A stretch of DNA of 26,224 nt from IMG/VR virus record IMGVR_UViG_3300048117_000442, positions 1 to 26,224 of that record; one strand, 5' to 3'. Positions 3,222 through 24,831 of the stretch are shown piece after piece (position 1 is the stretch's first letter; every line of letters begins with the position of its first letter). Origin of the DNA: a virus. Both the position numbers and the translations under genes were made by a program. The notes beneath the pieces are model-generated. The model ran no database searches. It saw only the letters and a program-made list of their open reading frames with translations, and had not been told where the DNA came from.

Positions 3222-3443
3222 TTATAAAATAGGTGTTCCAGCCTGTTTACTTAACTCAAAGTTCTCAGAAACTATCTCATTTAAGTGCTGAATGTGACCC
3301 GCCGGCATGTCATGTAACTCGGATATACTAACGCCACCACGCATATACCACGTAAGTTTATACAAAGATTTGTGCAGAGCGTCAAGTGATTTTTCGTAGG
3401 ACTCTTGTTTCGCTCTTACGTCAGTATCGCTGGCAGTCTTCAA
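3222..3443 (-). CDS. Baseplate hub-linked small protein, probably made by -1 frameshift
   Basis: The frame of 73 codons lies in the -1 frame relative to the upstream hub gene and overlaps its stop. The only start it could use at the junction is TTG (3443-3441), with no ribosome-binding site; the next Met is residue 34. The frame is open upstream through the slippery site, so a -1 shift gives a fusion of about 355 residues with no stop in between. The protein is helical, with a YMRGGVSISELHDMPAGHI stretch followed by LNEIVSENFELSKQAGTPIL. I recall similar short proteins beside hub genes of T4-like phages, but not a proven function. A role in hub or tail assembly is inferred from position. Confidence 0.65.
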   Translation of the reverse strand: MKTASDTDVRAKQESYEKSLDALHKSLYKLTWYMRGGVSISELHDMPAGHIQHLNEIVSENFELSKQAGTPIL

Positions 3444-3461
3444 CCAGCGGAGGAAAAATTT
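3428..3461 (-). promoter_or_regulatory. Candidate -1 programmed frameshift signal
   Basis: On the minus strand the hub gene reads GTA AAT TTT TCC. A AAT TTT (3461-3455) fits the X XXY YYZ slippery heptamer in the correct frame. After a 5-base spacer (3454-3450), CGCTGG (3449-3444) pairs perfectly with CCAGCG (3433-3428) around a 10-base loop that contains the hub stop codon TGA (3442-3440). Shifting back one base continues as F-L-R-W-L-K into the 73-codon frame. Heptamer, spacer and stem all match known -1 frameshift signals; use of the site is inferred. Confidence 0.65.
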
Positions 3462-4288
3462 ACAGGGTTCATGTCAAATGTGACTTCCTCTGTGTGTTTA
3501 CATGCCTCACAAGTAAACTCAAATGTTGCTATATCACTTATATTTGGTGAAACATTGTTTACAGTTTCATTTATTTTCTTAACAACATCTGCTGGTATAT
3601 TATCCATGAATTCTGTAATCATCTCTTTTTCAAAAATAACATTTTCTGGAGTTTCAATTCTGTCTATAGAACTTACTAATAAGTCTACGTTTTGTTTAGA
3701 CACTTTTCTGAAACTAGTAGCAAATGCTTTTGCCATTGCCAACTCGTCTTCTTCGCCTTCAATCTTATTAGAACTCATATTACTTAGAATTCTAGCCTGT
3801 TCTACTTCCATAAGTGCAAGTCTTGTTAGACTTTCTATTTTTGGCGGAGTTACAAAGATTTTAAGGTCTTCGTATTTTATTGGCTCAATGTCAGAAATTT
3901 CTGGGAATTTACCTAATATGCTATTGATGTCAATATTGTAATCTGCTTGTTCACTACATTCAGAACAAGTGTGTGTATGTTCTACTTCGTTACCATACGT
4001 TGCGTATTTGATTGCCAAGAATATCATCTCTGCATCGATATTACATAGATTTCTTGGATTAGGTATTGATGGTACACAACTACGGATAAGATTTATTAAT
4101 GCCTCTCCGTTTAATAGTTCGTCAGGATTTTGCATTGATATTTCATCAATAGCAGTCATCGGAAGTATAGGTAACTCGTCCAATACAGTTTTTTCTATTT
4201 CTGGATTAAATCTGCCACCAGTCGGAATTTGTACATATATTCCCGGTTTACGAAAATATTTGGATAATGGGTTCTCATTGGTGTTCAT
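3440..4288 (-). CDS. 26: Baseplate hub subunit, gp26 type
   Basis: This 282-aa protein matches the T4 baseplate protein family that includes gp26: NPLSKYFRKPGIYVQIPTGG at the N-terminus, LPILPMTAIDEI, LNGEALINLIRSCVPSI and IFLAIKYATYGN. Two CxxC pairs (C108/C111 in TCSECS and C260/C263 in TCEACK) look like a zinc ribbon. T4 gp26 is 208 aa, so this is a longer version. The baseplate hub is the centre of the contractile tail's baseplate and nucleates tail tube assembly. A late-type element on the minus strand (4354-4347) and an AAAGGA ribosome-binding site precede the ATG. The gene ends in the candidate frameshift signal, which would append the 73-residue frame. Confidence 0.8.
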   Translation of the reverse strand: MNTNENPLSKYFRKPGIYVQIPTGGRFNPEIEKTVLDELPILPMTAIDEISMQNPDELLNGEALINLIRSCVPSIPNPRNLCNIDAEMIFLAIKYATYGNEVEHTHTCSECSEQADYNIDINSILGKFPEISDIEPIKYEDLKIFVTPPKIESLTRLALMEVEQARILSNMSSNKIEGEEDELAMAKAFATSFRKVSKQNVDLLVSSIDRIETPENVIFEKEMITEFMDNIPADVVKKINETVNNVSPNISDIATFEFTCEACKHTEEVTFDMNPVNFSSAG

Positions 4289-4400: not shown

Positions 4401-6416
4401 ATGGCAGATGATTCACAAGACGTTTTTATTACAGGTGTAGGCGGTAACGTTGCCCAGTGGAGTACTGAAGCAACTGCCTCTCAAATGGCAGGTGCATTAA
4501 AAAAAATTGGTAGCCAAAATACAAAGATAATTGAACTCTTAACTAAAATGATGAGTGGTCAATCTGTTACTGTTAAACAGGCAGGTAAAGCAATTGGTGA
4601 AGGTGCAAAACTTCAAAGAAGTATTGATAAACAAACAGCAAAAGATACTACAAACGCAAACACGAGCCAAAGAGTATTAAGAGACATTGATAAAAAGTTT
4701 GGTGGCTTTGGTTCACTATTCGATGGTCTTAATACCACAATGGGTAAACAGTTAGTCCAAGAAAAGAAAACTACAAAAGCAGTTGAGCGTCTTATGAAAG
4801 CGTCAGGAATGTCTGAGGGTGATGCGAGAGCAACAGTTGAGGCAGACAACAAAGCAAAAGAGCAGATGAACTTTTTGAAAAAGGCAGTAGTAAGTATCGC
4901 TTCAGTCTCATTGATGGCAGAAGAGGCTACTAGAGCAGGATTTGAAGAAAGATTTGATATGGCATCTGAACTTCGTCAATCTGGTTTGATGAATGGCTTA
5001 AGTGGTATGAACGAAGGAATGATTGATATTGCTAGAACGATATCTGAAACTGGCTTTACTTTCGGTCAAGCCGCAGAATTTACTAAAGCATTTTCTGAAG
5101 CAGTTGGCGTAAAAGGCGTAAAGGCTACATTAGATTTTGTAAACAATATGGCACAAGGTCCTACTGGATTAATGGAACAGTTTAGTTTAGAGTTTGGACA
5201 AGTTGCTCACTTATCTGGTGAATACTTAGAATCTTTAAGACTTTCAGGTCAACTTAATAGAATGAGTGACCAACAACAGAGACTTGGCATGGACAGTTTT
5301 ATGTCTAATGTTCAAGCAACATCGAATGTACTAAAAGTTTCAATGGAAGAAGCGGCATCTATAATGAAGAATGCTTTGACTGATGAACAACGAGGCATGC
5401 TTTTAACTCTTCCAGACCAAATGCAAACGTCATTAAAGGCTGGAATGGAGTTTATGGGTGGAATGAATAATCCACTTGCTGAATTAATAACTACAAGATT
5501 AGGCGCAGGAGCAAATCAGTTTATGCAAACTGAACAATTCCAAGAAATGTCTGGCTCTCAAGCAGGTTTAGAATTGATTAAGTTCACTAATCAAGCGGCT
5601 AATGTTTTAGAAACACAAGGTGATGCGGCATTCCAAGAATTCATGGCTGGCCAAGGTTCTGGATTTATTGACGATTTGATAGAGACATTCTCGTCTTCTC
5701 AAAACAGAGGTGTTGCATTTACTGATGGAACTATGGCTCTCATTGGTCAGTTAGCGGCTTTTCAACAAACATTAAGTGAGGCTGGACAAGGCATATCTGG
5801 TGGTGATAGAGCAGACTCAGTAGAAATGAGAAACAGAGAAGCAAAACGTCAAGCCTCAGTTGGATATGAAGATGCATTTAATGCCCTTATGCCAGGTTTT
5901 ATTGATAACGTTGAAAATCTAACAGAAACAAATAGAAGATTTGCAGAAACTGCCAGAGATACAATTACAGAAAACGCAAATTTAATTGATGGATTTAGTA
6001 ATGCTACTACTGGTGTAAAACAAGTAGTAGTAGAAACAGCCTCACTTGTTACTAAAATGCTTCAGTTTCCAGCATTTGTATTCGACGGAGTTGGTAGTGT
6101 GTTTGGAACAAATGTACTAAGTAATGATGGTAGGTCTGCCCAAGACTTCACAAAAGCAGGTAAACAAGGTCGTACAATCAGTAATTCTCAAATGCAAGAT
6201 TTTGAAAAATATACTAATGATATGATTGAAAAGATTGGTAAAGATAAAAATGCAACTGCCGAAGATAGAAGAGCAGATTATGAAAGACTATTACAGTCAC
6301 TATCAACCATTATGATTACTCAAACGGCAGAGGGCTCAAATGCTAATAGTATAAATCAAACACAACAGAAGATATTAGCCAGTCTAACTACTTTAATCAA
6401 TCAGTTGAAGAATTAA
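4401..6416 (+). CDS. Probable tail tape measure / baseplate hub tail-length protein
   Basis: This 671-aa protein is almost entirely helical, rich in Ala, Gln, Met, Ser and Thr, with a hydrophobic stretch near residues 160-175 (KKAVVSIASVSLMAEEA) and another around 530-560. No enzymatic motif is seen. In T4 the tail length determinator is gp29 (590 aa), encoded among hub genes; the size, helical character and position back to back with the gp26-type gene suggest the same role here, as a ruler inside the tail tube. Direct similarity to gp29 was not recognised, so this rests on context. The ATG has AAAGG upstream. No terminator follows, so reading through into the portal gene is possible. Confidence 0.55.
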   Translation: MADDSQDVFITGVGGNVAQWSTEATASQMAGALKKIGSQNTKIIELLTKMMSGQSVTVKQAGKAIGEGAKLQRSIDKQTAKDTTNANTSQRVLRDIDKKFGGFGSLFDGLNTTMGKQLVQEKKTTKAVERLMKASGMSEGDARATVEADNKAKEQMNFLKKAVVSIASVSLMAEEATRAGFEERFDMASELRQSGLMNGLSGMNEGMIDIARTISETGFTFGQAAEFTKAFSEAVGVKGVKATLDFVNNMAQGPTGLMEQFSLEFGQVAHLSGEYLESLRLSGQLNRMSDQQQRLGMDSFMSNVQATSNVLKVSMEEAASIMKNALTDEQRGMLLTLPDQMQTSLKAGMEFMGGMNNPLAELITTRLGAGANQFMQTEQFQEMSGSQAGLELIKFTNQAANVLETQGDAAFQEFMAGQGSGFIDDLIETFSSSQNRGVAFTDGTMALIGQLAAFQQTLSEAGQGISGGDRADSVEMRNREAKRQASVGYEDAFNALMPGFIDNVENLTETNRRFAETARDTITENANLIDGFSNATTGVKQVVVETASLVTKMLQFPAFVFDGVGSVFGTNVLSNDGRSAQDFTKAGKQGRTISNSQMQDFEKYTNDMIEKIGKDKNATAEDRRADYERLLQSLSTIMITQTAEGSNANSINQTQQKILASLTTLINQLKN

Positions 6417-6475: not shown

Positions 6476-8173
6476 ATGACTTGGAAAAAGTACTTTAAAA
6501 CATATGACGGTGTTCCACGCCCGGCAGAAACAGGACCAGCACAAAATAATGCTTCGAGTTCTAAATATAGCAGTTGGTTACCAGAGGTCTATATGGGTCA
6601 ACCGAATCGTGCCCAACGTTATGGTCAATATGACCAAATGGACATGGATTCAGAAGTCAATGCGGCATTAGATACAATTGCAGAGTTCTCTACATTGTTT
6701 AGTGAAACTACTAAATTGCCATTTAACATTCAATACAATGATGACCCATCGTTTACTGAAAACGAAATTCTTCAAAAGTCATTACGTCAATGGTGTTCAA
6801 TGAATAAGATGAACAAACGTATCTTTAGAATTTTTAGAAATACAGTTAAGTACGGTGACCAATTATTCGTTAGAGACCCACAGACATACAAACTATATTG
6901 GGTAAACCCATCAAAGGTTGAAAAAGTTGTCGTAAACGAAGGCAAAGGCAAAAAGATTGAAGCATATTACATTAAAGATTTAGATATTAATATGCAAAGT
7001 CTTAATATTACCGCAGACACAGTTAAACTATCACAAACTGGCAGTCAGAAGATGGGTATTCCTACATCTACATCTGGTATGCAACAAAGTTATGGTTCAG
7101 GTGCGGATGGTCAAGGTTCAAGGTTTGCAAACGATGTAACAACTACAGCAATTGATGCCAAGCATGTTATTCATGTATCTTTAAGTGAAGGTATAGACCA
7201 ATACTGGCCGTTTGGTACAAGTATGCTTGAGCCTGTATTTAAAGTATACAAACAAAAAGAATTACTAGAAGACTCTATTATTATCTATCGTGTACAACGT
7301 GCGCCAGAACGTAGAGTATTCTATATCGATGTCGGTGATATGCCAACTCACAAAGCACGTCAACACTTAGAGCGTATTAAGAACGAAATTCATCAACGTA
7401 GAATCCCATCTAAAACTGGTGGTGGTGCTAACGTTGTTGATAGTGCGTATAATCCACTATCAATCATGGAAGATTACTTCTTTGCTCAAACGGCTGAAGG
7501 TCGTGGTTCTAAAGTTGAGACACTTCCAGGTGGTGAGAACTTAGGTGAAATTGATGATTTGAAATTCTTCAATGATAAACTACTAAGAGGTCTACGTGTT
7601 CCACCAAGTTACTTGGGTGGTATGGATGCAAATGGTTCTGCGTTTAACGATGGTAGAACTGGTACTGCGATGATACAAGAGTTCAGATTTACAAAGTATT
7701 GTGAAAGACTACAACAACTTATTGTTGAAGAACTAGATAAAGAATTTAAGATGTTCTTAAAGCACCGCGGTGTTGTGATTGAAAGCAGTTCTTTTGATTT
7801 GTCATTCAACACTGTCCAGAACTTCGGTAAGTATCGTCAAGCAGAAGTAGACCAAGTAGCAATGAACGTATTTACAAGCATTGAAAGTGCAGATTACATT
7901 AGTAAGCGATTTGCAATGAAACGTTTCTTAGGATTATCTGAAGAGGAAATCTTAGAAAACTCAATGATGTGGAAAGAAGAACGTGATGTTACTGACCCAC
8001 TTCAAGGCAGTGATGATGGACTTAAAGGTGTAGGAGCATCTCCGGGTCCAGCAGGCGGCGACTTTGATGGTGGTGGCGACATGGAAGACTTTGATGATTT
8101 AGAAGGTGATGCAACTGATGATGCGTCTGTGATTTCTGGAGAAGAAAACACAGAAACTGACGAAGATGCATAA
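6476..8173 (+). CDS. 20: Portal vertex protein gp20
   Basis: This 565-aa protein (T4 gp20 is 524 aa) forms the dodecameric ring at one vertex of the head, where DNA enters and the neck attaches, and which starts prohead assembly. Recognisable T4-like portal stretches are MDMDSEVNAALDTIAEF (near residue 60), KYGDQLFVRDP, HVIHVSLSEG, YRVQRAPERRVFYIDVG, FFNDKLLRGLRVPPSYLG and GTAMIQEFRFTKYCERLQQL. The C-terminal 60 residues are Gly, Asp and Glu-rich. The first codons follow TAGGA. The order portal, two small proteins, protease, scaffold, capsid is the T4 order, which makes the call secure. Confidence 0.95.
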   Translation: MTWKKYFKTYDGVPRPAETGPAQNNASSSKYSSWLPEVYMGQPNRAQRYGQYDQMDMDSEVNAALDTIAEFSTLFSETTKLPFNIQYNDDPSFTENEILQKSLRQWCSMNKMNKRIFRIFRNTVKYGDQLFVRDPQTYKLYWVNPSKVEKVVVNEGKGKKIEAYYIKDLDINMQSLNITADTVKLSQTGSQKMGIPTSTSGMQQSYGSGADGQGSRFANDVTTTAIDAKHVIHVSLSEGIDQYWPFGTSMLEPVFKVYKQKELLEDSIIIYRVQRAPERRVFYIDVGDMPTHKARQHLERIKNEIHQRRIPSKTGGGANVVDSAYNPLSIMEDYFFAQTAEGRGSKVETLPGGENLGEIDDLKFFNDKLLRGLRVPPSYLGGMDANGSAFNDGRTGTAMIQEFRFTKYCERLQQLIVEELDKEFKMFLKHRGVVIESSSFDLSFNTVQNFGKYRQAEVDQVAMNVFTSIESADYISKRFAMKRFLGLSEEEILENSMMWKEERDVTDPLQGSDDGLKGVGASPGPAGGDFDGGGDMEDFDDLEGDATDDASVISGEENTETDEDA

Positions 8174-12543: not shown

Positions 12544-13455
12544 ATGGCAGAACAAATCAAATTTGGTGATAGACTATATCTAAAAGGACAAGAATTGATT
12601 TTGGATAATGGTTCTAATAATGCCGTTATAAAATCAATTGATGGAACTTTAAAGGTTGACGATAATCTTGTTGTAACTGGTGACTTAACAGTCAATGGAA
12701 CAGCAACTACTGTTAATTCTACAACTCTAACTGTTGATGATAAGAATATAGAACTTGGTTCGGTAACTACTCCCACAGATGCAACCGCAAATGGTGGTGG
12801 TATTACTCTTAAAGGCGCTACTGATAAAACAATTTTGTTTGTAGACTCAACAGACACTTGGGATTTTAGTGAAAAAGTTAAATCTGTGAATGGCTTTGAA
12901 GGCAATCTAACAGGTAACGTAACTGGTAATGTAACAGGTAACGTAACTGGCGATATGACTTCGACCGGTATTTCTACATTTGCACAAATTGATGTTAATG
13001 GTGGTTTTTTAGATACTGTTGTAATTGGTGATACGGATCCTGGACCAGGAACATTTTCTGTAATTGCTGGCGATGGCGCTAACATTACTAACGTTCTTAC
13101 AAATTATACAACAGATACATTAACTGAAGGTTCTTCTAATCTATATTTTACAGATGCAAGAATTGACACACACTTAAACCAAAGCAATCCAAATAGTGGT
13201 TACGTTCTATCATGGAACGGCACAGATTATGTTTGGGCTCCACCTAGTATAAATTTTGATAAACAATTTAGTTCACTACTTAATACACCCACTACATTGG
13301 CGGGATATGGAATTACAGATGCGGCTACATCGACACAGGGTGCATTAGCAGATAGCGCCTTACAAAGTGAAACTATTAGTTTAGCAACACTAAAGGCTGA
13401 AGTTGCGGCTAGCACAGACTTTGCAGACTTTAAATCACGTATAGCGGCATTATAA
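12544..13455 (+). CDS. Short fibre or appendage protein, paralogue of the next gene
   Basis: This 303-aa protein starts with MAEQIKFGDRLYLKGQ, nearly the same as the next gene, so both probably share an attachment domain for the virion. Then comes a beta-rich part with NLVVTGDLTVNGTATTVNST (residues about 40-60), a TGNV repeat block (about 122-140), one LYFTDARID unit (about 199-207) and a helical C-terminus ending FADFKSRIAAL. This resembles trimeric beta-structured fibre shafts of marine T4-like phages. It lacks the C-terminal YADLAERY domain of two of the other fibre genes. The receptor or place on the virion is unknown. Confidence 0.7.
   Translation: MAEQIKFGDRLYLKGQELILDNGSNNAVIKSIDGTLKVDDNLVVTGDLTVNGTATTVNSTTLTVDDKNIELGSVTTPTDATANGGGITLKGATDKTILFVDSTDTWDFSEKVKSVNGFEGNLTGNVTGNVTGNVTGDMTSTGISTFAQIDVNGGFLDTVVIGDTDPGPGTFSVIAGDGANITNVLTNYTTDTLTEGSSNLYFTDARIDTHLNQSNPNSGYVLSWNGTDYVWAPPSINFDKQFSSLLNTPTTLAGYGITDAATSTQGALADSALQSETISLATLKAEVAASTDFADFKSRIAAL
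12907..12954 (+). repeat. TGNV-coding 12-base repeat
   Basis: A 12-base unit with alternating sequences close to ACAGGTAACGTA and ACTGGTAATGTA is repeated about four times, encoding TGNV repeats. Related copies lie in the fibre genes near 13809-13830, 13973-13990 and 18526-18552, so the genes share short homologous DNA. Confidence 0.7.
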
Positions 13456-13464
13456 GGAATAAAA

Positions 13465-16400
13465 ATGGCAGAACAAATTAAATTCGGCGATAGACTTTAT
13501 CTAAAAGGTGAAGAATTAGTTTTAGATAACGGTTCTGGTTCTGGAGTTATTAAAGCCACTAGTGGCACTGTTGAAATTAAGGGTAATCTAGTAGTAACTG
13601 GAGACACTACTACAGTTAACTCAATTCAAACTAGTTTTGCTGACCCGAAACTTTTAATTAATGGCGACTTGACTGGTGCTCCATCTGAAGATGTTGGTAT
13701 AGAAATTGAACGTGGTACTTCAGACAACAAATTCTTATTATGGAACGAAACGACAGACAAATGGTCAGTTGGTGCTGAGACATTTGTTGCAGGAATATTC
13801 GAAGGCAATTTAACAGGTAACGTAACGGGTGATATAACATCATCTGGTTCTACATTCTCAAATATAGATATTAATGGTGGCGCAATTGATGGAACAATTA
13901 TTGGCGCAAACACACCAGCGGCTGGCACATTCTCAACTGTAAATGCGACAACTATAACTGGTGCGTTAGTAGGCAATGTAACAGGTACAGTTTCTAGTAT
14001 TGCTAATCATACTACAAGTGATTTGACTGAAGGAACAAACTTATATTATACTGATGCAAGAGTTGATGCAAGATATGCCACATTACAAGCAGATAGTAAT
14101 TTCATAGAAACATTAGATGGACAAAACGGTGCGTATTACTTAGATTATAATAACTTAACAAACGTGCCAACAGTTATTGGCAGTATTGATGATTTAAGTG
14201 ATGTTGATACAACAACAAATGCGCCTACAACTGGACAAACTATCATATGGAATGGTACTAACTTTGTTCCTGGTAATAATTTTAGTCAATCAGATTTTGA
14301 TTCAGCATTCACTGCCAAAGACACAGATGACCTAAGTGAAGGTACAACAAATTTATATCATACGACAGCAAGAGCAAGAGCATCTATTAGTGCTACGGGT
14401 AGTTTAAGTTATGATAGTGGCACAGGTGTTGTTTCATATACACAGGGCAATACAGATACTGTAGCAGAAGGTTCAACTAATCTTTACTACACAGATGCAA
14501 GAGCGGATGCAAGGGCACAGTTAAAGATTGATGCTTTAGTTGACTCTTCGCCAGGAACATTAGATACATTAAATGAATTAGCGGCCGCTTTAGGCGATGA
14601 CGCAAATTTTGCCACTACGATGACAACTTCATTAGCAGGCAAAGAACCAACTATAACTGCTGGTACAACATCTCAATATTATAGAGGTGATAAATCATTT
14701 CAAACATTAGACACACTTGCAGTTGCAGAAAATACAAATCTATATTATACAGATACAAGAGCAAGAGCGGCTATTAGTGCGACAGGTAGTTTAAGTTATA
14801 ACTCATCAACTGGTGTCATATCTTTCACACAAGGTAATACAGATACAGTTGCAGAAGGCTCATCAAATTTATATTACACAGATGCTAGAGCAGATGCACG
14901 GGCACAATTAAAGATTGATGCATTAGTAGATTCAGCACCTGGAACATTAGATACATTAAATGAATTAGCCGCGGCACTTGGAGATGATGCTAACTTTAGT
15001 ACAACGATAACAAACTCTATTGCTACTAAACTGGCAATAGCAGATTTTAATTCTACATTTGACACAAGACTTGGTACAAAAACAACATCCGATTTGACAG
15101 AAGGTACAAATTTATATTACACAGATGCTAGAGCAAGAGCCTCTATTAGTGCAACTGGTTCTTTAAGTTACAACAGTACTTCGGGTGTTATATCATTTAC
15201 ACAAGGCAATACTGATACAGTAGCAGAGGGTTCATCAAATCTTTACTTTACAGATGCAAGGGCACAAGCAGTATCTATAAACAATATTGTAGAAGATACC
15301 TCACCACAATTGGGTGGCACTTTAGACCTAAACACATTTGACTTAACTACACTTGATGACACAGTTACATTGACAACAAATGCAACTCCATCAATTGTCA
15401 CAGGAACAGTCGGCGCATCAACAGAAACACTATTGTCAAACACAACAGTTACAATAAATGATGATGGTGATTATGCAAACTCTGTAAGTAGTTTTGTAAC
15501 ACTTACAAGTACACAGATAGATACTCTAGGCTTCAAAGGTGATTCATCCTTAACATATTTCGGTTCAGCCGCTTCCTCAAGTAATTTTGTTTTCAGAGAT
15601 ACTGGAGATAGTATTGAACAGAATAGTATGGTTGTTGTTTATTCACCGCCAACAGATACATATACATTTACATTAGCATCACAACATGCAGATAACGATT
15701 CTGGTACTCCTGGAAATCAAAACCAATTAAATATTTCTGCGGCAGATACGGATATAAAATTCAAGCAATATGCTTATGGAGAAATGACAGTATCGTCATC
15801 GACAGCACTTTCTAATTCCAATATTCAATTGAGAGATGAAGACGGATTTTATATTGATAAAACACATGTCGATGTCACAAATACATCAGGCAATAATTAT
15901 AAGATTGTCTTCTGGACACATAGCGTTAGTGTTGGTGATACAATTGAAGTAGTTAATCCATCATCATCTACTGCGATATTTACATGGGGTGCTGAAGATT
16001 ATAATGAAACAGGTCTAGTTGCTAGTTCAGAAAGTTTCTCAATCTCATCATCTTCAAATGATTTAATTGCAATTGGTGATTTAGATTTCACAGTTGGTAA
16101 TACAACTGGTGAAGTAGTTGGTACATTAGTTTATGATAGACCATCTACTAAGAGTGTTATTTCTGGCTTAACAACTGTTTCTATAGATGGTACTGATTAT
16201 CAGTCTGCATTAACAGTGTCTGATGCGCCTCTCATTTTGTCTGGTAATTCTGGAACATCAAATGAAGTCGGATTAGCAGTTGGTACTGGCACAGATGGAA
16301 GAATACATCAACTTGGTACTTCAGGCATAACGACATTTAAATTCCCAGCCGCAGACGGTTCAGCAAATCAAGTAATGAAGACAGATGGTTCTGGTGATAT

Positions 16401-17337
16401 ATCTTGGGCAACACAAAATACTGATTATGTTACAGAGGGTTCTAACTTATATTATACAGATGCAAGAGCAGATGCAAGGGCACAGTTAAAGATTGATGCC
16501 TTAATCGGTGGTGCATCTTCAGCCTTCGATACTTTATTAGAGATTGAAAATGCGATGGCTACTGATACTGAATTGTCTTCAGCAATTTCAGGACTTAACC
16601 ATGATACACTATCTGGCTTTGTAGCAAACGAACACATCGATTGGACTTCAGCATCAGCAGGAACAATTGACCCTAGTAACTATACTAATACCGGAGACAC
16701 AACATACACAGCAGGTACAGGTTTAAGTTTATCAGGAACAACATTTACAAATACTTCTCCAGACCAAACAGTTACATTAACTGGCGCAGGTGCTACTAGT
16801 ATCTCAGGAACATATCCTAACTTTACTATTACAAGTACTGATAGTTCAACTAATATTTCAGGAACTATTGAACCAGCGACAGACAATACTTACAACTTAG
16901 GTAGTCCTACTAAAAAGTATGCCAATATTTACGGTCACTCAGTTCACGCAACCTATGCCGACTTAGCAGAAAGATATGCAACAGACGTTCCGTATGAACC
17001 TGGAACAGTTGTAGTATTTGGTGGTGAAGCAGAAATCACAACAACGAGTATTGCTGGTGATGTATCAGTGGCAGGTGTAATTTCTACTAATCCAGCGATT
17101 AAACTAAATGCTGATGCTGGTAATTCAGTGACGCATCCATATGTCGCACTAAGAGGTAGAGTGCCATGTAACATGGTTGGTCCAGTGTCTAAGGGTGATT
17201 TGATTATTACAGCACATGATGAGCCAGGATATGCTAAGAGTAATGGCAAGTTTGATGCTGGTCGTTCAGTCTTTGCTAAGTCACTTGAGACAGACCTCAC
17301 AGAGGGCAAAAAAGTTATAGAAGTTGTGATTTTATAA
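13465..17337 (+). CDS. Long modular fibre protein with LYYTDAR repeats
   Basis: This 1290-aa protein is the largest in the window. Order: the shared head MAEQIKFGDRLYLKGEEL; TVNSIQTSFADPKLLING (about residues 50-70); TGNVTGD block; then about eight units of the type EGxxNLYYTDARADAR (roughly residues 190-600, with another near 1000); a Ser/Thr/Asp-rich beta region (about 610-980); TDNTYNLGSPTKKYANIYG and the C-terminal domain starting TYADLAERY (about 1165-1290). The YADLAERY domain with G.V.....YVALRGRVP is shared with the last fibre gene. Some units carry TLDTLNELAAALGDDANF. It is probably a trimeric virion fibre for host recognition; the exact place is not known. AAGGA lies before the ATG. 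Confidence 0.75.
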   Translation: MAEQIKFGDRLYLKGEELVLDNGSGSGVIKATSGTVEIKGNLVVTGDTTTVNSIQTSFADPKLLINGDLTGAPSEDVGIEIERGTSDNKFLLWNETTDKWSVGAETFVAGIFEGNLTGNVTGDITSSGSTFSNIDINGGAIDGTIIGANTPAAGTFSTVNATTITGALVGNVTGTVSSIANHTTSDLTEGTNLYYTDARVDARYATLQADSNFIETLDGQNGAYYLDYNNLTNVPTVIGSIDDLSDVDTTTNAPTTGQTIIWNGTNFVPGNNFSQSDFDSAFTAKDTDDLSEGTTNLYHTTARARASISATGSLSYDSGTGVVSYTQGNTDTVAEGSTNLYYTDARADARAQLKIDALVDSSPGTLDTLNELAAALGDDANFATTMTTSLAGKEPTITAGTTSQYYRGDKSFQTLDTLAVAENTNLYYTDTRARAAISATGSLSYNSSTGVISFTQGNTDTVAEGSSNLYYTDARADARAQLKIDALVDSAPGTLDTLNELAAALGDDANFSTTITNSIATKLAIADFNSTFDTRLGTKTTSDLTEGTNLYYTDARARASISATGSLSYNSTSGVISFTQGNTDTVAEGSSNLYFTDARAQAVSINNIVEDTSPQLGGTLDLNTFDLTTLDDTVTLTTNATPSIVTGTVGASTETLLSNTTVTINDDGDYANSVSSFVTLTSTQIDTLGFKGDSSLTYFGSAASSSNFVFRDTGDSIEQNSMVVVYSPPTDTYTFTLASQHADNDSGTPGNQNQLNISAADTDIKFKQYAYGEMTVSSSTALSNSNIQLRDEDGFYIDKTHVDVTNTSGNNYKIVFWTHSVSVGDTIEVVNPSSSTAIFTWGAEDYNETGLVASSESFSISSSSNDLIAIGDLDFTVGNTTGEVVGTLVYDRPSTKSVISGLTTVSIDGTDYQSALTVSDAPLILSGNSGTSNEVGLAVGTGTDGRIHQLGTSGITTFKFPAADGSANQVMKTDGSGDISWATQNTDYVTEGSNLYYTDARADARAQLKIDALIGGASSAFDTLLEIENAMATDTELSSAISGLNHDTLSGFVANEHIDWTSASAGTIDPSNYTNTGDTTYTAGTGLSLSGTTFTNTSPDQTVTLTGAGATSISGTYPNFTITSTDSSTNISGTIEPATDNTYNLGSPTKKYANIYGHSVHATYADLAERYATDVPYEPGTVVVFGGEAEITTTSIAGDVSVAGVISTNPAIKLNADAGNSVTHPYVALRGRVPCNMVGPVSKGDLIITAHDEPGYAKSNGKFDAGRSVFAKSLETDLTEGKKVIEVVIL
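14026..15265 (+). repeat. Cluster of repeated fibre units
   Basis: Units encoding EG..NLYYTDAR-A recur through this stretch about every 100-300 bases. The longest exact DNA match noted is 29 bases, at 14554-14582 and 14941-14969, within the TLDTLNELA unit. The spacing is uneven and the units are coding, so it is an internal protein repeat. Confidence 0.8.
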
Positions 17338-21786: not shown

Positions 21787-23004
21787 TTAGCCTGCAACTA
21801 CACCACACAAGGCGGCACAGGACTTAAGTCTTTTGTTTCTTATATCTCTATCTTTGAATGTATCTAAGTAACCAGTTGTATATATTTCTCCATCTATTAT
21901 TTGTTTTATAGATTTGTGTTGTAATGAAATATTATTTTCTCCAAAAGATTTTATAAAATTCACTAACGGACCAACCATGTCTTCAGTGCCAAACTCATCA
22001 TCATACATTGCGGCATGCCAACAACACGGAAAAACTAACCCATAACTGTTTACAAAAATATGTGAACTTTTTATTGCTACACAATCTATATCACATTTGC
22101 CTAATTCTACTTCGTGTCCAGTCAACTCTCTGTCTATGTTGTTTATGTGATTTGTTCTGTCTTTACGTTTAACAGGTTCAATATTAATATAAGATTTTTC
22201 TAAATCTGATTTTATATCTGTGATATATCCAACTTTTTCTGAATCTAAGAACATTTTCTGTTGGTCATCATTGCCTAGATTTCTTTTGTCAAATTGTTTT
22301 TCAACATTCTTACTTTCAACTTCTGCTGGTGGCTTGATTGTATATTGATACTCGCCTTGTCTACCGTATACTTTCATTGATTGAATAATATTATTGTCTT
22401 TGTCTCTATTAGTAGAAAAGCCCATCGCTCTCTTGGCAAAGAACTTGGTGACTCCCATATCTTTTGCAAGTTGTCTTGCTTCTTCTACTTGATGTTCATT
22501 ATGTCTAAACACAAGAAATTCCCAATGAGAATCAGCACCTGTTGAGATATATGTTTCCATTGCTAACATAATTTTATCCCAATATGTGCCTTTTCTGTAT
22601 ATCCAGTTTGTGTCTTCAAGACCATCAACACTGAATACAACAGTAGAATTATTGACAGAGAATATCTCTCCTAACTCACGCCAGAATGCTTCATCTCTGC
22701 CACTTGCGTTTGTGTTCATATGAAATCTTATATTTGGATTTATAGACCTAAAGTGTTTCAAAATAGGAATTAAATCTGGGTTAGTCATGGAATCTCCATA
22801 ATTACCACACATCGTAATCATGTTTAAGTTTTCAATAAAGTCTTCAGAAAACCATTCTTTAACTTGCTCAGTGGTCATATATGTTTCTGTGAATGTTTTG
22901 CTCTTTATGCCACCTTCTAGTCTTCGATTACAACTCGGACATTCAGCATTACATAAACTACTAGTTTCTAAATCTAATCTTTTTATATCTTTGTAGTTTA
23001 TCAT
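21787..23004 (-). CDS. Radical SAM protein with SPASM-like C-terminus
   Basis: This 405-aa enzyme should use a [4Fe-4S] cluster and S-adenosylmethionine for radical chemistry. The cluster motif is C18-x3-C22-x2-C25 in SSLCNAECPSCNR, followed by the expected TMCGNYGDSMTNPDL glycine-rich strand and RFHMNTNASGRD. The C-terminal part has CVAIKSSHIFVNSYGLVFPC, a C-x13-G-x4-C pattern of SPASM or twitch domains that bind extra clusters, then CCWHA and CAALC. SPASM enzymes often modify peptides or proteins, but the substrate here is unknown. It begins one base after the stop of the Nudix gene, last in a unit starting with gp14, so it should be made late. Confidence 0.85.
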   Translation of the reverse strand: MINYKDIKRLDLETSSLCNAECPSCNRRLEGGIKSKTFTETYMTTEQVKEWFSEDFIENLNMITMCGNYGDSMTNPDLIPILKHFRSINPNIRFHMNTNASGRDEAFWRELGEIFSVNNSTVVFSVDGLEDTNWIYRKGTYWDKIMLAMETYISTGADSHWEFLVFRHNEHQVEEARQLAKDMGVTKFFAKRAMGFSTNRDKDNNIIQSMKVYGRQGEYQYTIKPPAEVESKNVEKQFDKRNLGNDDQQKMFLDSEKVGYITDIKSDLEKSYINIEPVKRKDRTNHINNIDRELTGHEVELGKCDIDCVAIKSSHIFVNSYGLVFPCCWHAAMYDDEFGTEDMVGPLVNFIKSFGENNISLQHKSIKQIIDGEIYTTGYLDTFKDRDIRNKRLKSCAALCGVVAG

Positions 23005-23005
23005 T

Positions 23006-23449
23006 TTAAACTTTCAATGTTGATATGATATCGTTAATAATTTTTAGTTTTTTCTTTCTAAAAAGTGTACGTCTTGTACCAGGATGTAAAGGTTTTGGCA
23101 CGCAGTTTGTGTCTACCCAAGCATATCCGCCAGACTCATCGTTCATTTTTGGAATGAATTCTTCTTTGACAAGAATAACAAAAGAGTAGTAACTAAAGTC
23201 ACCATTTCTTGCATGATATTGGTCTAGTGGATATATCTTTACAATATCATTTTCAATATCTAATGATATTTCTTCTTGTAACTCTCGTAATAATGCTTGT
23301 GCTACATTTTCATTGTCTTCTACTTTTCCACCAAAGAAACCCCAATTTCTAGGAAATGACCCATCTATTGCTCTTTGTTGTAGAAGTATTCTATGTGTGT
23401 CTTTTGCGACTATGCATCCGCCAGCCGCCTTGAGTTTCGATTCTTTCAT
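23006..23449 (-). CDS. Nudix hydrolase
   Basis: The start chosen is ATG 23449, which overlaps the TAA of gp15 (TAATG) and suggests coupling; a TTG at 23479 would add ten residues. The 147-aa protein has the complete Nudix box G41-x5-E47-x7-R55-E-x2-E-E60, with the usual Gly after EEx replaced by Ser (EEISL). Nudix enzymes hydrolyse nucleoside diphosphates linked to another moiety, such as oxidised nucleotides, NADH or ADP-ribose; the substrate cannot be read here. The preceding WGFFGGKVE strand is MutT-like. It stands between gp15 and the radical SAM gene, an unusual place for a metabolic enzyme. Confidence 0.87.
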   Translation of the reverse strand: MKESKLKAAGGCIVAKDTHRILLQQRAIDGSFPRNWGFFGGKVEDNENVAQALLRELQEEISLDIENDIVKIYPLDQYHARNGDFSYYSFVILVKEEFIPKMNDESGGYAWVDTNCVPKPLHPGTRRTLFRKKKLKIINDIISTLKV

Positions 23450-24831
23450 TATGGCGTTACTACTAGTTCCATTCTCCAATATCCAGCCTCATAAATTCCT
23501 TGGTATGTATCTGTCCATGATTTATCTTTGGCATCAAATTTAAACTGTTGTGAAGTCGTTGTGTTTGTTACGTATTCTCTAGTGTCATTAGCACTTGCGT
23601 CAAAACTCTTCACCCAATCAGTACCATTATACTCTATAATGTCATTAGTGTCAACTGCAATTCCCCACACACTGCTTTCTGTTGCAGAATCTAATGTCAA
23701 GTATCTTTGACCTAGTGCAACATTTGGAATACTGTTAAATCCTGGTCTTGCTGTTGAGGCATTGATAATTCTATCTACCGATGTTATTGTATTTGTCGGT
23801 AACGTAGCAGTGTCGATTGCGAATTCTAAAGTATTATTATCACCAGTAGTTGATAGTGTGCCGATTACGTCAGCATTCAAGTCATCTAACTCGCCATGGT
23901 ATTTTAATCGAAGCCTTGAAACACCACTATCTAATGTGCCATATTCTTTAAGTACTGTTGACCAAGGAATACTAGCATCGTAATTTCCGTTTGCAAACGG
24001 AGTTGCTAAAACATTACCACCATTTTCATAAACTCTTAATGCGTAATTGCCTGGAGTTACAATTACACTTGACTGTGCGTTCAAGTCTGCAAAGAACTCA
24101 AATGCATCTGGGTCATAATCAAGTGTGTCTAAGTCTGTATAAGTGTATATGTTATTGATAATATTTCTGATAACATTTTGTCTTGTGACTTGTGCTGGTG
24201 GATTAATCCAAACTGGTATCTGAAATATCATTGTTGCAATATCAATTTGGTCTTCAATACCTGCCGGAATTCCTCTGCTTGTCCATTGTAAGTCAGTCAT
24301 CTCTACAGTAGTGATTGTCGTCCAATCAATTGGATTATCATTGTGTTGTATTTCTAATGCTGGATTAAATAGCACTAAGATTTGCTCAAGTAGTTGAAGT
24401 TTTTGGTCAGTGTTTGAAGTCCAAATATCAACTTGCATATTCAGTAAGTAAGGAACTGGCATTAATCTTTTTACACTATACTTTTGTCCCTGTTCTGCGG
24501 TGTAAGAGTTTGTATTTGAGTCGAATGCTCTTTCATTAATACTCACAGCATCATTGAAGAATGGCTCTTGTAATCTCTGTCTATCAGGTTGCAAACTTTG
24601 TACCCAACAAGCAATAAATGGAGCAGATTGTACTACATTCTCTGAGTTACCCTTAAGAATAGTTGCCGCCATACGAGATACATCTCCGTATCTTGCTGGT
24701 ACTCTGATATAATAATCAGTTACTCCATCGTTTTTCTTTGAGCCTGTTTTAACTGTGAAGCCACTGAACATTCTTACAAATTGTAAGATATATCTTCGAA
24801 TCTGATTGTCATAGAAATGTTTTTGTGCCAT
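23449..24831 (-). CDS. 15: Tail sheath stabiliser / tail completion protein gp15
   Basis: This 460-aa protein starts FYDNQIRRYILQFVRMFSGF, followed by YYIRVPARYGDVSRM, aligning with the T4 gp15 N-terminus (FYNSSFRRYATLM...FIRVPI). T4 gp15 is 272 aa; gp15 caps the tail and connects it to the neck. LMPVPYLLNMQVDIWTSN (about residue 145) and QWTSRGIPAGIEDQIDIAT (about 205) are also characteristic. The extra C-terminal 190 residues are beta-rich, with NDIIEYNGTDWVKSFDASAN and YEAGYWRMELVV, as seen in gp15 of other marine myoviruses in my memory. It is directly after gp14 (1 base apart), the T4 order. Confidence 0.85.
   Translation of the reverse strand: MAQKHFYDNQIRRYILQFVRMFSGFTVKTGSKKNDGVTDYYIRVPARYGDVSRMAATILKGNSENVVQSAPFIACWVQSLQPDRQRLQEPFFNDAVSINERAFDSNTNSYTAEQGQKYSVKRLMPVPYLLNMQVDIWTSNTDQKLQLLEQILVLFNPALEIQHNDNPIDWTTITTVEMTDLQWTSRGIPAGIEDQIDIATMIFQIPVWINPPAQVTRQNVIRNIINNIYTYTDLDTLDYDPDAFEFFADLNAQSSVIVTPGNYALRVYENGGNVLATPFANGNYDASIPWSTVLKEYGTLDSGVSRLRLKYHGELDDLNADVIGTLSTTGDNNTLEFAIDTATLPTNTITSVDRIINASTARPGFNSIPNVALGQRYLTLDSATESSVWGIAVDTNDIIEYNGTDWVKSFDASANDTREYVTNTTTSQQFKFDAKDKSWTDTYQGIYEAGYWRMELVVTP

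Follow-up and report, generated by a model that had tools for sequence, protein, structure and literature searches.

How is an open reading frame translated when it overlaps the 3′ end of a gp26-type gene in the −1 frame and carries no evident start at its head? This question is raised by a locus in the window, the whole 26,224-nt stretch of DNA analysed here, which is a 26-kb virus record with T4-type genes for the portal protein gp20, a prohead protease, the major capsid protein gp23, and the tail sheath stabiliser gp15. The reading we favour, with a probability of roughly 0.9, is that a single gene would give rise to gp26 (282 aa) and to a minor 355-aa −1 frameshift fusion with a gp51-like domain, and that the two products would be chaperones resembling the G/GT pair. 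The coordinates of the locus are collected in Table 1.

Table 1. Features of the gp26-type locus and its neighbours (window coordinates)
Feature	Position	Strand	Remark
gp26-type gene, putative short tail assembly chaperone form (TAC-N)	3440..4288	-	282 aa; ATG 4288 to TGA 3442-3440
Slippery heptamer A_AAT_TTT, in frame	3455..3461	-	invariant in 26/26 clade relatives
Spacer TCCTC, 5 nt	3454-3450	-	between heptamer and stem
Downstream stem-loop, 6-7 bp, candidate stimulator	3428..3449	-	5 nt after heptamer; stop codon in loop
0-frame stop codon TGA	3440..3442	-	TGA or TAA in relatives
-1 frame extension, predicted gp51-like C-terminal domain	3222..3455	-	77 codons plus stop; would be reached by frameshift
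Structural gene of 671 aa in divergent orientation, flanked by gp26 and portal; candidate tape measure	4401..6416	+	position only
Portal protein gp20	6476..8173	+	PF07230, 7.4e-108

The gp26-type protein was matched by the PF12322 (T4_baseplate) profile at 3e-19 and 70 bits, which is above the curated cut-off of 24.5, and by phrog_150 at 3.7e-23. An AlphaFold2 model of it (pLDDT 84) found its best viral fold matches among T4-like baseplate hub assembly proteins; there was no significant PDB match to the model, and no solved gp26 structure was found by sequence or fold. The name of hub gene, under which the sequence-only reading had introduced this locus, needs correction, as gp26 and gp51 of T4 are listed as hub assembly chaperones and the literature is split on the presence of gp26 in the hub. 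T4 gp51 is essential and its function is unknown. The candidate tape measure gene corresponds in position to a RaK2 gene annotated as similar to tape measure protein, and no homology of its product to T4 gp29 or to the two P-SSM2 genes following gp51 was detected. Just downstream of the gp26 locus, positions 2075-2512 encode a SegE-type GIY-YIG homing endonuclease (PF19835, 1.5e-35), and segE is also found in the neighbourhood of T4 gene 26.

The heptamer, the 5-nt spacer, and the 6-bp stem with the stop codon in its loop, all proposed earlier from the letters of this stretch, were found again at the same positions. From 31 nt ahead of the 0-frame stop, the −1 frame stays open as far as position 3222, so that an in-frame X_XXY_YYZ heptamer is combined with a −1 frame that continues past the 0-frame stop, the configuration by which −1 programmed frameshifting is recognised. 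A shift at the heptamer would produce the junction ...NPVNF-FLRWLKTAS..., and the length of the fusion, previously put at about 355 aa, was recomputed as 355 aa. In E. coli, motifs with mixed X and Z generally shift poorly, but R_RR.U_UU.Y motifs, including A_AAU_UUU, are reported to be shift-prone exceptions to this rule owing to the shifty UUY codon. The arms of the stem are CGCTGG (3449-3444) and CCAGCG (3433-3428), to which a U-G pair (3443/3434) can be added. Its folding energy is ordinary, with a z score of −1.3 and 22 of 200 shuffled sequences folding equally well. Among ten distinct sequences of close relatives, 94% of the stem cells are paired, the outer pair is missing in four, and no compensatory changes were seen; moreover, conserved residues of the −1 frame are encoded within the arms, so that the stem's conservation is confounded with coding. 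We infer that the stem-loop may act as a frameshift stimulator. Cyanophage junctions have a hairpin of another sequence just 3′ of the heptamer, and a clear stem after the heptamer was not found in several jumbo phages.

The comparison that the sequence-only reading had called for, of the heptamer and the −1 overlap in relatives, was carried out on 26 viral contigs that encode the gp26-type gene at 67-100% identity; a 27th match was incomplete and was left out. GTAAATTTTTC is unchanged in all 26, and in each of them the −1 frame runs 72-75 codons past the 0-frame stop. The stop itself varies between TGA and TAA, and in two contigs (L024 and L025) it is replaced by a TAG three codons upstream, with the −1 frame remaining open. 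The codons GTA AAT TTT are fixed in 10/10 distinct sequences, which use synonyms elsewhere. In synonymous change, PVNFSSA is the seventh lowest of 244 windows along the gene, the lower ones lying near its 5′ end; this is supportive of a frameshift site, yet not unique to it. The extension has exactly 77 codons in all 14 aligned clade sequences, and its dN/dS is 0.09-0.39 among distinct pairs, mostly 0.1-0.3, when near-identical pairs are left out. Judged by these ratios, the extension is under purifying selection.

More distant relatives carry a related signal. In all of nine jumbo phages, the gp26 stop is preceded at 10-40 nt by an in-frame T_TTT_TTC or T_TTT_TTT, and the −1 extension is open. 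A profile search with the jumbo phages gave 80 IMG/VR loci, one being the 121Q record and the others sharing 27-60% identity with the 121Q query. All 80 have a heptamer: T_TTT_TTC in 78, and A_AAT_TTT only in L158 and L194. The −1 extension measures 58-75 codons in 80/80 of these loci, whereas the +1 frame reaches 40 codons in just one. Many of them carry AAATTTTTTC, where the sites A_AAT_TTT and T_TTT_TTC overlap one another and so could plausibly interchange. Across 56 distinct junctions, the codon before Phe-Phe specifies His, Arg, Asn, Ser, Ala, or Asp and always has T as its third base, and Phe-Phe is always written TTT TTC, although TTC accounts for a third of Phe codons elsewhere. T_TTT_TTC is likewise present in 80/80 cyanophage-like loci; 78 of them have a −1 frame that stays open for 58-61 codons beyond the stop, and in the other two (L068 and L113) the contig ends first. 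By host, the heptamer is T_TTT_TTT in phages of Methylophilales, T_TTT_TTC in those of Desulfovibrio and of Vibrio (Schizotequatrovirus), and T_TTT_TTG in those of Rhizobium. No heptamer was found in three Ackermannviridae-type records, namely VP-1, phiA8-29, and D531, the last of which is assigned to this type by similarity only; the −1 frame is kept in all three. The signal thus spans cyanophage-like, jumbo-like, Schizotequatrovirus, and rhizobial relatives, and in these comparisons all close relatives and the majority of the distant ones retain it. At three Ackermannviridae-type junctions (L122 2221, L124 2242, and L125 2242), T_TTC or T_TTT tetramers are seen, with a TAATG overlap in two, which suggest either a shift on the tetramer or reinitiation.

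As a control, the ORFs of the same contigs that reach 100 aa, 438 in all, were scored for a heptamer together with a −1 extension of 50 codons or more. The combination was found in 118 of them, and all but two bear the Phe-Phe or Phe-Leu signature of gp26. This leaves 2 of about 320 ORFs other than gp26, an approximate figure since the gp26 split rests on the signature. The coincidence of heptamer and −1 extension at gp26 is far beyond chance.

What the extension encodes could be addressed by profile comparison. The window and jumbo extensions were aligned by hhalign with a probability of 96% (E 3.7e-9) and have WYMRGG and a C-terminal PIL in common; on this alignment they are homologous. The jumbo extensions reached a probability of only 15%, a weak value, against a profile of cyanophage and T4 gp51, and the direct comparison of the window extension with that profile was insignificant at 1.4%. 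Matches to the gp26 families PF12322 and phrog_150 cover T4 gp51 in most or all of its extent, and phrog_634, the cyanophage gp51 family, matches its C-terminus; T4 gp51 therefore looks like a gp26 to which an extension has been added. By their family matches, T4 gp26 and gp51 are paralogues. The position of the window extension after a gp26 domain, together with the chain of matches through the jumbo set, suggests that it probably corresponds to the C-terminal part of T4 gp51. The AlphaFold2 model of the extension is all-helical (pLDDT 88), and a viral fold library returned nothing significant for it. When the fusion was scanned with phrog_150, the match reached only position 235 of the 282 in the profile, with no gain into the extension.

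The extension might instead be a separate small gene of 73-77 codons, translated by reinitiation at the TTG that overlaps the gp26 stop in the window (GGTTGA) or at another start after that stop. The cyanophage frame does have an ATG immediately beyond the gp26 stop and carries the annotation of gene 51, and in several jumbo phages the extension is annotated as a small ORF. In the window, the earlier claim that the head of the −1 frame offers a TTG but neither an ATG nor a ribosome-binding site was borne out: TTG 3443 is the sole start-like codon near the junction, no Shine-Dalgarno-like sequence is seen ahead of the extension, and the first ATG is its codon 37. This TTG is TTA or CTG in most clade relatives, the first ATG common to all is that of codon 37, and most have none before it. 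Furthermore, any such start would come only downstream of a conserved FF-x-x-x-L stretch, and the heptamer is kept in all cyanophage-like and jumbo-like loci, even in those that have an ATG. Relatives with a separate ATG and ribosome-binding site and without the heptamer had been named beforehand as an observation that would refute frameshifting, and the opposite was found in the clade and in the jumbo-like set. Translation as a separate gene is unlikely in our judgement. Slippage of RNA polymerase on the T-run, rather than of the ribosome, could also yield a message in the −1 frame, and the runs of six or seven T at the sites of most relatives would permit it. The site of the window clade, by contrast, is only A3T5, a mixed sequence with no long homopolymer, and the X_XXY_YYZ codon register, which transcriptional slippage would not need, is kept in 56/56 distinct junctions, making the polymerase a very unlikely source of the shift.

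The arrangement of T4 itself has to be considered as well, in which the long form is a complete second gene, as with genes 26 and 51; the −1 frame of the window would then be a relic. One gp26 domain and one extension domain, adjacent to each other, are found in each of seven records, of which three are near-complete genomes of 328-358 kb, and no other copy of the domain was seen in these relatives. A relic would also not hold dN/dS near 0.15, so that, judged from these relatives, a second gene elsewhere is highly improbable. A frame break near the 3′ end resembles a sequencing or assembly indel, or the decay of a once-single gene in this contig. This reading was rejected with next to no probability left to it, as it is ruled out by conservation of the break: the same break is present in 26 separate clade contigs and in isolate genomes such as RaK2, 121Q, PA5oct, and P-SSM2. 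Purifying selection on the −1 frame likewise speaks against it.

Under −1 ribosomal frameshifting, the majority of ribosomes would terminate at 3442-3440 and release gp26 of 282 aa as the short tail assembly chaperone. A minority, with A_AAT_TTT in the P and A sites, would slip one base back (AAT to AAA, TTT to TTT), possibly aided by the stem-loop 5 nt downstream. The shifted ribosomes would read 77 further codons to complete the 355-aa fusion, in which the added domain would be equivalent to the C-terminal part of T4 gp51. That slippage occurs, that it involves only a minor share of ribosomes, and that the products are chaperones is what we infer from this arrangement. In lambda, the tape measure protein is coated by gpG and gpGT, which also bring in tube subunits (Atkins et al. 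2016). By analogy, the short form in many copies and the long form in few would cover the tape measure protein and attract the subunits of the tail tube. Most likely, then, gp26 is the short and gp26-gp51 the long tail assembly chaperone, in the manner of gpG and gpGT. A short and a long form that share an N-terminal domain, the long one having an extra C-terminal domain, are present as encoded in the DNA. The proposal is that the pair would work like G/GT and carries no claim of homology, the gp26 model having no chaperone match in the PDB.

The lambda gpG/gpGT system, and P2 E/E′ with it, likewise uses a −1 shift near the 3′ end of the short chaperone gene to make a minor long form. In the window, the heptamer differs from that of lambda, no sequence relation is apparent, and the gene is divergent from the neighbouring structural gene rather than part of a G-T-H operon. 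T4 was described as an exception to tail-chaperone frameshifting in the review of Atkins et al. (2016). The products of its genes 26 and 51 both match PF12322, gp51 with an extra C-terminal domain; unlike in the window, the two are separate genes on opposite strands, and the end of gene 26 has no slippery heptamer. In cyanophages, "gp51" (P-SSM2, L038 7217-7390; L039-L118) is located in the −1 frame after gp26, as in the window, and behind T_TTT_TTC, but it has its own ATG, so that a free gp51 is also possible. Sullivan et al. (2010) found that cyanophage gp51 lacks about 200 N-terminal residues and saw it as truncated. Frameshifting would explain this appearance, with gp26 supplying the missing N-terminus. 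Several jumbo and rhizobial phages (L028, L031, L033-L036, and L126) have a small gene annotated behind gp26, and some phages have none; these small ORFs probably represent the C-terminal part of a frameshift fusion, wrongly annotated as genes of their own.

That the case has no known precedent among T4-type baseplate hub genes, as the sequence-only reading put it, does not hold. Vladimirov, Gautam & Davidson (Virology 2022, doi 10.1016/j.virol.2021.11.003) had identified the chaperones of tail assembly in T4-like phages, and the later Adele paper cites poly-T slippery signals in the TAC-N genes of these phages; judging from the papers that cite the 2022 work, the mechanism is therefore not new, having already been reported for T4-like phages in 2022. 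The PRFect paper adds that some T4-like phages use a short gene and a longer fusion gene in place of frameshifting. The TAC-N and TAC-NC of Vladimirov et al. are taken here to be gp26 and gp51, an equation drawn partly from the family matches. On that basis, the T4-like pair is of the same kind as that of the window, with a common N-terminal domain and with poly-T slippery sites cited for TAC-N; in contrast to those genes, as the citing papers present them, the window clade has A_AAT_TTT in place of T_TTT_TTC, and its C-terminal part has no start codon at the head. New here are the clade, its variant site A_AAT_TTT, and how widely the signal is conserved. The −1 frameshift reading and the analogy with G/GT put forward earlier are well supported. 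In the window clade, frameshifting seems to be the sole route to the extension domain, which makes the gp26/gp51 model directly testable. A broader proposal, on which we are evenly divided, is that frameshifting was the ancestral route to the long chaperone across the T4 superfamily, with sites interchangeable within AAATTTTTTC (A_AAT_TTT/T_TTT_TTC); T4 would have lost it by duplication into genes 26 and 51, and the marine clade would have come to depend wholly on A_AAT_TTT, with no other route to the domain.

Elsewhere in the window, positions 21787-23479 encode a SPASM-domain protein (a weak match, below the cut-off) and a NUDIX protein whose reading frame runs slightly into that of gp15. 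Two adjacent tail-fibre-like ORFs, at 12544-13455 and 13465-17337, have nearly identical beginnings (MAEQIKFGDRLYLKG..), and this shared start suggests a local duplication.
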